From: Nanobdellota archaeon | Lineage (GTDB): Archaea; Nanobdellota; Nanobdellia; Woesearchaeales; SM23-78 | Assembly: GCA_018819305.1 (NCBI GenBank) | Contig: JAHJQO010000031.1 | Span: 1-44,041 of the forward strand | Length of the DNA: 44,041 bases | Reading direction: 5' to 3' | Shown: positions 599-37,749 of the stretch, one piece after another | Numbering within the stretch: position 1 is the first letter of the stretch | Layout of the letters: every line of letters begins with the position of its first letter | Translations under genes and position numbers: made by a program | Notes under the pieces: generated by a model | Database searches by the model: none | Told to the model about the DNA's origin: nothing | Seen by the model: only the letters and a program-made list of their open reading frames with translations

Positions 599-1705
599 TT
601 GAGTTTAAAAGCAGCAATTATAAGTTTAGGCAGTGAAAGTTCAGAATGGACAGTTGAAGCTATGCGCAAATATTTTTCAGAAGTTGACGACCTTGACATT
701 CGCCAAATTGAAATCAATATTTCTGGCAAATCTGCAGAGATTCTTTATAATGGAAAACCAATTCCAAAATATGACTGTGTTTATGCAAAAGGTTCATTCA
801 GATATGCGCCACTGCTTAAAACACTAACTTCTGTGCTTGAAAACAAATGCTATGTTCCCATTTCTTCTGATGCTTATACAATTGCTCATGACAAGCTGCT
901 TACTCACTTAGAGCTTCAGAAACATAACATATCGATGCCAAAGACTTATGTAAGTGCAACAATTGCAGCAGCTAAAAAAATTCTTGAAAAAATCAATTAT
1001 CCTATTATTATGAAATTCCCGCATGGCACAGGAGGAAAAGGTGTTATGTTTGCAGACAGCTATGCAAGTGCTTCTTCTTTGCTTGATGCACTCACTGCTT
1101 TAAGGCAGCCTTTTATTATTCAAGAGTACATTGAAACTAAAGGAACAGATGTTCGGGCTATTGTTGTTGGCAACAAAATAATTGCCTCTTATAAACGCAA
1201 GGCTGGCTTAAATGAGGTGCGTTCTAATTTTCATTCTGGCGGAAGTGCAGAGCCTATTGAATTAGATAGTAATACAAAAAGAATTGCCATTAATACAGCA
1301 AAGGCAATAAAAGCAGACATCTGTGCAGTTGACATGCTTGAAAGTTCAAAAGGTGCTCTTGTTATTGAAGCCAACATCAGCCCGGGTTTGCAGTTGATTA
1401 CAAAGACAACACAAATTGATGTTGCTGACAAGATTGCAAAGTATCTTTATGAGAGAACTCTTGAATTCAAAACCAGAGACAAGGAATTAAAGAGTGCTCA
1501 GATTATGAAAGGAATTGACAAAGAAACAACTGCTGACGGCAAAAGGAAATTCATCACAAATCTTGATTTCAGAGGCAACAAGATTCTTCTTCCTGAAATC
1601 ATAAGTCAGATATGTGATTTTGATTCAGAGGACAACTATGACATCACAGCTGAACCTGACAAGGTTGTTATTAAGAAGCTGAAGATTAAGAAAGATGATG
1701 ATTGA
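599..1705 (+). CDS. RimK-family ATP-grasp amino-acid ligase with C-terminal extension
   Basis: 368 residues, starting with TTG and preceded by GGTGGT at a suitable distance. The ATP-grasp fold is visible from about residue 100 to 290: IIMKFPHGTGGKGVMF is the glycine-rich ATP loop, and VIEANISPG holds the Glu and Asn that bind magnesium. RimK-type enzymes add glutamate or similar amino acids to a protein or cofactor terminus. The last 70 or so residues, after the ATP-grasp domain, form a Lys-rich extension that I do not recognise. The upstream aspartyl protease is the typical partner, so the two probably form an operon for a reversible amino-acid tag. The target cannot be read from sequence. 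Confidence 0.85.
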   Translation: MSLKAAIISLGSESSEWTVEAMRKYFSEVDDLDIRQIEINISGKSAEILYNGKPIPKYDCVYAKGSFRYAPLLKTLTSVLENKCYVPISSDAYTIAHDKLLTHLELQKHNISMPKTYVSATIAAAKKILEKINYPIIMKFPHGTGGKGVMFADSYASASSLLDALTALRQPFIIQEYIETKGTDVRAIVVGNKIIASYKRKAGLNEVRSNFHSGGSAEPIELDSNTKRIAINTAKAIKADICAVDMLESSKGALVIEANISPGLQLITKTTQIDVADKIAKYLYERTLEFKTRDKELKSAQIMKGIDKETTADGKRKFITNLDFRGNKILLPEIISQICDFDSEDNYDITAEPDKVVIKKLKIKKDDD

Positions 1706-1723
1706 TAAAATGAATTGGAATAT

Positions 1724-2473
1724 TTAGTCCAGCCAAGCTTCTACTAAAACAGATTTATGTTTTACTAACTTATTAATTTTTTTGCCAATATCTAATTCTT
1801 CTGCAACCAAGTCCATTACAAACTGACTCATCCCTGATGCAAAATATGTCGGATATATACACAAACCATAATGAATGCCATCTATAGTAATTCCTTCCAG
1901 CAAAGTAGGGAGTTCACCCAGAATATAGGAAGCAAGCCTGTCTGTTTTTCTTTTATCATTTATTATTCTTTCTTTTTTTCGCATGTATTTTTTAACAAAA
2001 TATAACACAGCAGATTTAAATTCAGAATCAATTTCATATTGTTTCTCTAAAAATTCCTTTAGTTCAAGGTATTTTTTATCTTTTAAAACAGTTTCCCACT
2101 TGTAGATTTCAATTTTAGGCTGGTCACAAAGAGGTAACTTTTTTATTTGTTTCAGAAATAGCTCCTCAAAATAACTTCCTTGGCTTTGTGCCCTTTTCTT
2201 AGCCTTTCCTTTACTATATTTATCTAAAATCTCATAATTAACTATATTCAATTCATCTGCAATAATTACTGCAACTTTTCCTTTTGTATTGCGAACCGCC
2301 CAAGTTAGATAGTTAAGTGCCATTTCACCAGTAATCTTCTTATTGCTTATACTGATTCCAATAAAAATATGAAATCTCTTATTGTAAATCTCATCAGAAC
2401 TAGCACCAAAAAATCTCATTTTTTTCTCAGATTCATACACACTCTTAGGAATAGTAATCATTTCTTCTTTCAT
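1724..2473 (-). CDS. tRNA-dependent cyclodipeptide synthase
   Basis: 249 residues. Cyclodipeptide synthases use two aminoacyl-tRNAs to make a cyclic dipeptide (diketopiperazine). Compared from memory with AlbC of Streptomyces noursei, the key residues match with the same spacing. The catalytic Ser is S41 in HIFIGIS (AlbC S37). Y183 and E187 in YILGELP match Y178 and E182. Y207 in CIYP matches Y202, exactly 24 residues after Y183 as in AlbC. The Lys/Arg-rich helix KGKAKKRAQSQG fits the tRNA-binding helix. It is divergent from a deoxyribosyltransferase-like gene across an 82-bp promoter gap. No oxidase, methyltransferase or transporter adjoins it, so the product may be used unmodified. Confidence 0.88.
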   Translation of the reverse strand: MKEEMITIPKSVYESEKKMRFFGASSDEIYNKRFHIFIGISISNKKITGEMALNYLTWAVRNTKGKVAVIIADELNIVNYEILDKYSKGKAKKRAQSQGSYFEELFLKQIKKLPLCDQPKIEIYKWETVLKDKKYLELKEFLEKQYEIDSEFKSAVLYFVKKYMRKKERIINDKRKTDRLASYILGELPTLLEGITIDGIHYGLCIYPTYFASGMSQFVMDLVAEELDIGKKINKLVKHKSVLVEAWLD

Positions 2474-2555
2474 ACATATAATAAAGGATTACAAGTTTAT
2501 AAATTTACTGAACTTTTTCATAACCTTTAAAAAAGAAACCATATCATATCTAAAT

Positions 2556-2894
2556 ATGACGAAGCGTTTAAGAATTTATGTGGCTGGGCCTTTGACTTCT
2601 AATGATTTAAAAGTTTTTAAGCAGAATGTAAAAAAAGCAAAAGAAATTGGCGAGCAGATTTTTAAAAAAGGTCATCTTCCTTATGTCCCTCATGCACATT
2701 TTTATGATTGGGATATTCACATGTATAAAGATTATGAATTCTTGCTGGCGCATGGTATTGACATCCTTGAGAAATGGGCTGATGCTTTGTTCTACATAGA
2801 CCCTAGCAAAGGTGCAGACATTGAAAAGAAACGAGCAGAAGAACTTGGCTTGAAAATATTTACTGATATTTCTGAGATTGAAGAAGTTAAATAG
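2556..2894 (+). CDS. Nucleoside 2-deoxyribosyltransferase-like protein
   Basis: 112 residues. It opens with IYVAGPLTSND, the start of the nucleoside 2-deoxyribosyltransferase/DUF4406 fold, and contains DPSKGADIEKKRAEELG, which matches the family's S-x-G-A-x-x-E segment with the active-site Glu retained. The family cleaves or exchanges N-glycosidic bonds of nucleosides or nucleotides; some members are nucleotide-monophosphate hydrolases. The gene is divergent from the cyclodipeptide synthase, with a leaderless-type promoter. Substrate is not predictable, and no functional link to the divergent gene is implied beyond proximity. Confidence 0.7.
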   Translation: MTKRLRIYVAGPLTSNDLKVFKQNVKKAKEIGEQIFKKGHLPYVPHAHFYDWDIHMYKDYEFLLAHGIDILEKWADALFYIDPSKGADIEKKRAEELGLKIFTDISEIEEVK

Positions 2895-2943
2895 ATAAAT
2901 AAGTTAAAGATAATTTTATAAGTTAAATAGAAATTCTAAAAGA

Positions 2944-3225
2944 TTAAAGCAGATTCTTTAACTTGTCAATATATGTGGCTACTTCTTGTCCTTTTTTTGT
3001 CAGAGTCAGAACTTTTAGTCTTCCTCTTTTTTCAAAAGTTACTAATCCTGCTTTTTGCATTTCCTGAAGAATCTTAACTACATGGCTGTATGTGCAGTCC
3101 ACGATTTTGGCAAGGTTTGAAGCATATATATTGTTGCTTTTATGAAGAAGTTGTACCAACATCATTGCTGGCTTTTCCCGAAAGAAAACATTGAATATTT
3201 TTTTGCTCTTCATAAAATCATACAC
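2944..3225 (-). CDS. Winged-helix transcriptional regulator (MarR/ArsR-like)
   Basis: 93 residues containing one winged-helix domain. The helix-turn-helix reads ASNLAKIVDCTYSHVVKILQ, followed by GLVTFEKRGR as the wing and a terminal dimerisation helix. It is like the small single-domain MarR-type regulators common in archaea, with no ligand-binding extension. A second ATG five codons downstream (MKSKKIF) could be the start. It stands alone between convergent and divergent neighbours, so its target genes are not evident. Confidence 0.7.
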   Translation of the reverse strand: MYDFMKSKKIFNVFFREKPAMMLVQLLHKSNNIYASNLAKIVDCTYSHVVKILQEMQKAGLVTFEKRGRLKVLTLTKKGQEVATYIDKLKNLL

Positions 3226-36795: not shown

Positions 36796-37749
36796 CTAAG
36801 AACGACTTATCCTTCCCTTAAGAACGTCCACCACAACGTCAGGGACAAGCTGTACTTTAAAGAACTCTGTGTTCTGCAGGACATCAATTTTCAGGTTCGG
36901 ATCAAATGCTTTAAGGTTTTCAACAAACTTTATGAGTTCATTATGTGATGGAGGGAGGTAATGCATAGCATACTGATTGTATGATTCAAATACAAAGCCA
37001 GAGTAAATGTTTGCTCTTATATGGGCAAGCAGCTGCTTTTTTTTATTTGGCACAACTTCTAGCCTGAGAATATATGCAATTCTGCTTATTTTGAAGATAT
37101 TAATGCCGTATCTGAATTTTTGTATTAGATTTGATTTTAAGTATTTTTTTATGCGCTCTGTAATTGTTTTTCTGTCAAAACCTGTTGCTTCACTTATCTT
37201 TGTTGCTGGTTCTATTGGATGCTGAATTAAATATGCCAACAAAGAATAATCAATATTATTAAGTTCAATTGCTTTATCAGTTTTTAATAGGTCTGGTGTT
37301 ATACTGAGATTAAAAGGATTGTAATCATCAGGTATAGAACGAATTACAGGATAAATCTCAAAGTGAACATCTGGCAGATATTTCAGGCAAAAGGTTTCAA
37401 TATCATCAGTTACAACATTTATAATCCATTGGTATGCGCCAACACACTGCATTAGAAAATATATCTCTTTGCTCTGCATTAACTGTTCAATATGTTCTTT
37501 TGAATAGTCTTTAAGATAAATCATGTACTGGGGAATTTTGAGCAGAGTGAAATTCATAAAGATTGCAGGCTCAAGAATCTCTTTTTTCAGGCGTTCAATC
37601 TTGTAATTGGTCCGCTGTGGAGAAATTTTAAGTTTTTTAGCAAGCGAATTAACTGGCTCTCTGGAGTTCTGGCTTAAATAGAAAATAAGCTTTTTATCAT
37701 AGAGGTCTAATTTTATTCTTTCCTGTGATTTCCTTGAAATAACAGCCAT
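36796..37749 (-). CDS. Lrp/AsnC-like regulator with two winged helices
   Basis: 317 residues. Two DNA-binding halves are visible: DLYDKKLIFYLSQNSREP with VNSLAKKLKISPQRTNYKI at the N-terminus, and NIDYSLLAYLIQHP with ATKISEATGFDRKTITERI from about 170. Each precedes an alpha/beta segment that could be a degenerate Lrp ligand domain. Divergently transcribed from the radical SAM gene (106-base gap), which is a likely target. The duplicated layout is common in archaeal Lrp-like proteins of this size. Confidence 0.7.
   Translation of the reverse strand: MAVISRKSQERIKLDLYDKKLIFYLSQNSREPVNSLAKKLKISPQRTNYKIERLKKEILEPAIFMNFTLLKIPQYMIYLKDYSKEHIEQLMQSKEIYFLMQCVGAYQWIINVVTDDIETFCLKYLPDVHFEIYPVIRSIPDDYNPFNLSITPDLLKTDKAIELNNIDYSLLAYLIQHPIEPATKISEATGFDRKTITERIKKYLKSNLIQKFRYGINIFKISRIAYILRLEVVPNKKKQLLAHIRANIYSGFVFESYNQYAMHYLPPSHNELIKFVENLKAFDPNLKIDVLQNTEFFKVQLVPDVVVDVLKGRISRS

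Follow-up and report, generated by a model that had tools for sequence, protein, structure and literature searches.

Cyclodipeptide synthases (CDPSs), a family known from bacteria, join two amino acids taken from charged tRNAs into a small ring. Within the XYP clade that ParcuCDPS (CDPS 90, from Parcubacteria bacterium RAAC4_OD1_1; PDB 7QB8 and mutants) shares with the CDPS described here, we know of no other assayed enzyme. The functional residues S26, Y167, E171, and Y191 of ParcuCDPS and Y178 of AlbC have been described, and D58 of ParcuCDPS is essential, less than 1% of the activity being left after its mutation (PMC7613923). Two papers set out the ping-pong route, through an aminoacyl and a dipeptidyl enzyme, as established for the family (PMC5935735; PMC7613923). 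The pocket motifs of the characterised CDPSs, including ParcuCDPS, are given in Table 2 of PMC5816076, which also reports several XYP CDPSs as inactive in E. coli.

As of a 2015 review, no archaeal CDPS gene was known, the compounds alone having been reported from a haloarchaeon (PMC4609331); the first archaeal CDPS to be noted was one metagenomic XYP sequence in 2018 (PMC5816076). The CDPS family, the XYP subfamily, and one archaeal example are already known (PMC5816076), while the extent and shape of the DPANN presence is new to us: it takes in members of both subfamilies, transfer on more than one occasion, and a clade held in common with CPR. In the literature found on cyclodipeptides together with DPANN, the latter were named only within a reference. 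The usual picture of DPANN archaea is one of minimal metabolism, and knowledge of their small molecules is close to nil.

Family assignment, active site, and substrate pockets

The stretch of DNA analysed here (the window, 44,041 nucleotides) belongs to an 82%-complete draft genome of 1.53 Mb, whose class also contains a Candidatus Pacearchaeota MAG. An earlier note on the window had proposed a CDPS in a DPANN genome, and both parts of that proposal held. An open reading frame of 249 aa with an ATG start lies exactly at positions 1724-2473 of the minus strand, and its product matched both family profiles above their curated cut-offs, namely, PF16715 of Pfam (E 3e-18; 66.8 bits, the cut-off being 27 bits) and TIGR04539 of NCBIfam (E 1.6e-24; 86.7 against 45 bits). 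It was the sole CDPS match in the draft genome, and the same search gave no matches in 14 control genomes. The nearest solved structures in a sequence search of the PDB were all of ParcuCDPS (E about 5e-17). An AlphaFold2 model built from a 20-row alignment of relatives (pLDDT 92.1, pTM 0.89) had ParcuCDPS as its top Foldseek match (E 4.5e-12, TM 0.70 to 0.82), followed by YvmC, BtCDPS, the S. haemolyticus CDPS, AlbC, and others, with only CDPS entries among the 50 matches listed. The profile search and the structure prediction, both proposed in the earlier note as checks, thus came out in its favour, the predicted fold being of the class I aminoacyl-tRNA synthetase-like Rossmann type. The gene and its key codons are as follows.

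1724..2473, minus strand, stop codon included: predicted CDPS of the XYP subfamily, 249 aa (PF16715, TIGR04539, PDB match, AlphaFold2 model, Foldseek)
2351..2353, minus strand: S41, nucleophilic Ser and putative aminoacyl carrier; invariant in the 20-row alignment, aligned with ParcuCDPS S26
2342..2344, minus strand: N44, AlbC position 40, the X of XYP (alignment)
2255..2257, minus strand: D73, equivalent of the essential ParcuCDPS D58 (alignment; role of D58 from PMC7613923)
1925..1927, minus strand: Y183, AlbC Y178 (alignment)
1913..1915, minus strand: E187, AlbC E182; invariant in the 20-row alignment
1850..1855, minus strand: Y207-P208, AlbC Y202-H203, the putative cyclisation Tyr (invariant) and the Pro that marks XYP (motif table)

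The catalytic Ser/Tyr/Glu/Tyr set (S37, Y178, E182, and Y202 in AlbC) is present as S41, Y183, E187, and Y207, at the places first proposed, and aligns with S26, Y167, E171, and Y191 of ParcuCDPS. The claim that these residues are spaced as in AlbC was right for the last two intervals (4 and 20), while the first, from Ser to Tyr, is one residue longer, the series being 142/4/20 in the window protein and 141/4/20 in both ParcuCDPS and AlbC; for AlbC we took the numbering to be S37/E182/Y202. Outside this set we found D73, N44, and P208, and the agreement with ParcuCDPS extends to all seven catalytic or subfamily positions (7/7). The XYP signature (X40, Y202, and P203 in AlbC numbering) is present as N44, Y207, and P208, which places the protein in the XYP subfamily, and in the tree it stood with the XYP rows, separated from the NYH rows at 100/99. 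We conclude that the gene encodes a CDPS of the XYP subfamily, with activity predicted from homology.

By analogy with the family route, the first tRNA would hand its aminoacyl group to S41, which D73 would orient, and the side chain of that group would sit in pocket P1. A second aminoacyl-tRNA would dock at P2 and be attacked, in ping-pong fashion, by the amino group of the S41-bound residue, which Y183 and E187 would position and activate, giving the dipeptidyl enzyme. Y207 would then promote cyclisation, and a 2,5-diketopiperazine would be set free.

Pocket positions were chosen so as to reproduce the published ParcuCDPS motifs GAYAWELY (P1) and FEWKYTR (P2), and the mapping returned both exactly. 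In the window protein P1 reads FGIYWTLC (F37, G39, I70, Y124, W126, T190, L191, and C205) and P2 reads FKYKTSG (F159, K162, Y163, K166, and the residues after P208, the latter uncertain since they lie at a two-residue insertion). The histidine pocket is not conserved. Because the histidine-binding Y55, E174, and Y189 of ParcuCDPS are replaced by I70, T190, and C205, a histidine-containing product is unlikely, and there is a weak indication that the product differs from the cyclo(His-Pro) and cyclo(His-Glu) of ParcuCDPS. The nearest characterised P1 motif is FGLAWSLL (Phe; 4/8 positions identical), and the nearest P2 motifs are FSYRGFG and FRYRGFS (Leu/Ile; two to three of seven positions identical to FKYK(TSG)). 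These motifs point weakly to a hydrophobic cyclic dipeptide of the cyclo(Phe/Leu/Ile-Leu/Ile) type, a prediction that in our judgement is likelier to fail than to hold.

The two closest relatives of the window CDPS, L039 (60% identity; genome G1035) and L040 (56%; genome G948), both come from the order containing a Candidatus Pacearchaeota MAG (hereafter, the Pacearchaeota order). The three proteins all agree at 21 of the 22 positions assigned to catalysis or pockets, compared with 114 of the 249 columns of the full alignment (hypergeometric P about 3e-7). Third codon positions are the most divergent, and synonymous sites are saturated, precluding an estimate of dN/dS. Constancy of the pockets at an overall identity of 56 to 60% looks like the mark of selection keeping one activity.

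We also considered whether the fold might have been kept and the function changed, to that of a tRNA-binding or regulatory protein or of a non-cyclising transferase of aminoacyl groups to another acceptor. The protein is distant from assayed enzymes (about 25 to 29% identity to ParcuCDPS), and such drift does occur in DPANN, since two CDPS-like proteins of the same order score near the profile cut-off and have YE in place of YP/YH. We nevertheless regard a changed function as quite improbable in view of the retention of every catalytic residue, D73 and Y207 included, and of pocket positions better conserved than the rest of the protein.

The locus and its insertion site

The following features surround the CDPS gene.

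599..1705, plus strand: left flank, a RimK-like ligase of the ATP-grasp type, conserved in 7/7 congeners (Pfam); its gene is convergent to that of the CDPS
1706..2943, no strand: RimK-HTH interval; about 21 to 115 bp in G001 to G003, unrelated genes in G004 to G006
2556..2894, plus strand: DUF4406/DUF7768 protein of 112 aa, similar to nucleoside 2-deoxyribosyltransferases; gene divergent from that of the CDPS (Pfam; absent from G001 to G006)
2944..3225, minus strand: right flank, an HTH protein of the winged-helix type, conserved throughout the congeners (Pfam; 80 to 87% identity in G001 to G006)
2496..2503, minus strand: TTTATAAA, resembling a TATA box, its centre about 26.5 bases upstream of the CDPS ATG; a motif no commoner than chance in the window
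2525..2532, plus strand: CTTTAAAA, a TATA-like motif, its centre about 27.5 bases upstream of the start codon of DUF4406 (sequence)

Each of the two start codons has a TATA-like box some 27 bases upstream, which suggests that the CDPS and DUF4406 genes are read as two divergent leaderless transcripts. No structured element was found in the region between them (z -0.23).

In the six sampled congeners (G001 to G006) the RimK-like and winged-helix flanks occur in the same order (6/6), and the CDPS gene is absent (0/6). The interval between the flanks is about 21 bp in G001, 69 bp in G002, and 115 bp in G003, with no remnant of a CDPS gene; it holds a kinase-like gene in G004, several genes in G005, and methylthioribose-phosphate-isomerase-like and aldolase-like genes in G006 (identities in G004 to G006 read from the sequence alone). 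In this genus the interval thus carries differing cargo in four of seven genomes. Since this cargo varies, and since the DUF4406 gene, like that of the CDPS, is absent from all six congeners, the interval is a variable insertion site, which in the window holds a two-gene islet of CDPS and DUF4406. The DUF4406 gene probably arrived together with the CDPS gene in one insertion. The HTH gene is not specific to the CDPS, because it is conserved in all the congeners, which lack the latter.

Absence from the six congeners, together with a G+C content of 30% for the CDPS gene against 36% for the neighbouring RimK gene, would also be expected if the CDPS gene stood in the window merely through a misassembled or contaminating contig. 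Such an origin is extremely improbable: both flanks are orthologous to those of the congeners and keep the gene order found there, further genes shared with the congeners, TFB among them, follow on the contig, the join falls at a site that is variable in other congeners too, and relatives of the CDPS occur in independent DPANN genomes on contigs bearing aIF2-alpha, ribosomal proteins, or histidyl-tRNA synthetase (HisRS). As the neighbours of the CDPS gene are the congeners' own genes, the contig is a genuine DPANN contig and not contamination.

The earlier note had seen no tailoring enzyme beside the CDPS gene, and we agree, since the flanking genes, DUF4406 excepted, are common to congeners without a CDPS. 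No oxidase, P450, methyltransferase, or exporter linked to the CDPS was found at the locus in this 82%-complete draft, where a tailoring gene may lie farther away, and the diketopiperazine would, given no linked tailoring gene, probably leave unmodified. A nitroreductase-family gene elsewhere in the genome was considered as a candidate cyclodipeptide oxidase and set aside as uninformative, as the family matches all 14 controls. PADLOC gave no match for the CDPS or DUF4406 that would indicate a role in defence; the HTH protein was likewise rejected as a defence component, being matched only by generic winged-helix models and conserved where the CDPS is missing. An all-against-all comparison of neighbours gave no recurrent neighbour for the window's own CDPS clade; the nucleoside-deoxyribosyltransferase-like genes near the window CDPS and near L043 (L054) are only weakly alike. 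A tandem Lrp/AsnC-type regulator, of the kind found beside NYH CDPSs, lies at positions 36796-37749 of the window (minus strand), 34 kb from the CDPS gene.

Distribution, phylogeny, and horizontal transfer

We found CDPSs in 13 of 353 genomes of the window's order, which is probably Woesearchaeales, in 11 of 200 of the Pacearchaeota order, in 18 of 371 in an even sample of the phylum, and in 9 of 384 of a CPR class, which puts the share of genomes with some CDPS at about 4 to 6% in two DPANN orders. The earlier view that archaeal CDPSs are known mainly from salt-loving groups found no support in the 2015 review or in these three DPANN samples. A scan for the window's clade across 84,980 genomes, guided by a profile, using short patterns, and not exhaustive, returned four relatives, all from DPANN or CPR, and no relatives were found on plasmids or phages (tblastn) or on viral contigs. 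Among the CDPS-like proteins scoring close to the profile cut-off, L012 and L013 have YE in place of YP/YH and L026 has FP; these are possibly divergent or non-cyclising DPANN branches.

In the tree, the window CDPS grouped with L039 and L040 at 100/99. The next group comprised six rows, five of them from the Pacearchaeota order (100/97), and the enclosing clade comprised 17 rows, from DPANN and CPR only (99/99), an exclusivity that is a statement on the sampled sequences, the tree having no non-CPR bacterial XYP enzymes (there were none in the scanned collections). ParcuCDPS and two CPR relatives were nested among rows of the Pacearchaeota order (98/90). Three alternative topologies were rejected by AU tests: one that joined the window CDPS to the second sequence from its order within the 17-row clade (p 0.0015), one in which the Pacearchaeota-order rows formed a clade that left out the window CDPS (p 3e-5), and one that united the CPR XYP rows in a single clade (p 9e-4). 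The contig carrying L039 does belong to the Pacearchaeota order: its HisRS is 49 to 63% identical to those of that order and 31 to 41% to those of the window's order. Between G1035 and the window genome (G000) the CDPSs are 60% identical and the HisRSs 40%; the CDPS gene therefore moved between the two or from a common source. The gene neighbours differ, with a DDE transposase beside L040 and a phosphoribosyltransferase near L039.

The scatter of CDPSs across many DPANN families could also reflect an ancestral gene lost from most lineages without any transfer. We hold this to be very improbable, since three congeners have a short RimK-HTH junction (about 21 to 115 bp) with no remnant, the sister sequences belong to another order, the AU tests reject the vertical groupings, and identity between the orders is higher for the CDPS than for HisRS. 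With the closest relatives, which have nearly identical pockets, found in another order and with congeners lacking the gene, we conclude that it was transferred horizontally. Taking transfer and catalytic competence jointly, we think it very probable that the window encodes a competent XYP CDPS, its activity judged by homology, acquired horizontally from a Pacearchaeota-like DPANN donor, the direction resting on a tree of modest sampling.

Several of the other CDPS loci had features of their own. Six NYH-type CDPSs (L078, L080, L081, L082, L083, and L085), from six genomes and six families of the same order, have a divergent tandem Lrp/AsnC-type regulator of ~340 aa at a distance of 108 to 173 bp, which amounts to 6/9 of the DPANN NYH loci; the conserved pair suggests amino-acid-responsive control. 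Two CPR CDPSs are of about 460 to 475 aa, one of which (L029, 664-2088, minus strand) has a family-3 solute-binding domain (Pfam SBP_bac_3) fused behind the CDPS, the other (L030) being homologous and similarly long; the domain fused in L029 may act in amino-acid sensing or may be dehydratase-like. At L055 (7650-9520) a histidyl-tRNA-synthetase-like gene is directly followed by that of a Pacearchaeota-order CDPS, L024, in which the Glu and one Tyr of the ParcuCDPS histidine pocket are kept, and at L090 (7889-9861; CPR) a CDPS gene lies a few bp behind a glycyl-tRNA-synthetase-like gene; such adjacency, at 2/34 loci, may be due to chance. CDPSs of two branches (L056, 6456-8387; L060, 6840-9793) stand beside XerA-like tyrosine recombinase genes and serine-recombinase fragments, both loci adjoining the rpS9/rpL13 operon, and a shared insertion site is possible. 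A B12-binding radical SAM protein, possibly a tailoring enzyme, is encoded directly beside the CDPS of G223 (L061, 700-2061, minus strand).

Possible role and comparison with characterised CDPSs

In addition to the explanation given above, and not as an alternative to it, the cyclic dipeptide may signal to, or inhibit, the host or neighbouring organisms, much as the earlier note suggested; we consider this less likely than not, and nothing found here speaks for a specific signal or toxin role. Diketopiperazines affect bacterial quorum sensing (PMC4609331), and a patchy, mobile distribution among presumed symbionts of both domains suits an ecological trait; on the other hand, patchiness fits any accessory trait, and the CDPS has no linked gene for a receptor, an exporter, immunity, or tailoring. 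Bolder still, and in our estimate rather unlikely, is the idea that the tiny symbiotic archaea of DPANN and the tiny bacteria of CPR swap a private CDPS clade across domains, that selection keeps its pockets, and that the unmodified cyclic dipeptides serve them as a small-molecule tool toward hosts or neighbours. The window CDPS, a tRNA-dependent peptide-bond enzyme apparently kept by selection, moved between DPANN orders, and placed in a clade shared with CPR, offers a concrete and cheaply testable candidate natural product for this hard-to-culture group.

AlbC of Streptomyces noursei and the other CDPSs of the NYH subfamily share the fold and the catalytic Ser/Tyr/Glu/Tyr with the window CDPS, at about 15% identity in structural alignment, but have His after the last Tyr (the NYH motif) where the window protein has YP; they often adjoin tailoring oxidases, whereas the window CDPS has no tailoring neighbour. 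The sequence AQS34941 from a metagenomic archaeon (Canu et al. 2018, PMC5816076) is, like the window CDPS, archaeal and of the XYP subfamily. In L039 and L040 the identity with the window CDPS runs over the whole length, the N-terminal extension included, the P1 motif is the same with one I/V change, and the P2 motifs are the same, while the host order and the gene neighbours are different. ParcuCDPS is the closest solved structure by both sequence and fold and has the catalytic set in common with the window CDPS, including the Asp partner of the nucleophile. The window protein is archaeal, whereas ParcuCDPS is from CPR; at its N-terminus the window protein is longer by about 15 residues, and it has two additional residues following YP. 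The structurally studied ParcuCDPS now stands beside archaeal relatives, and the specificity code of the CDPSs gains new pocket types.
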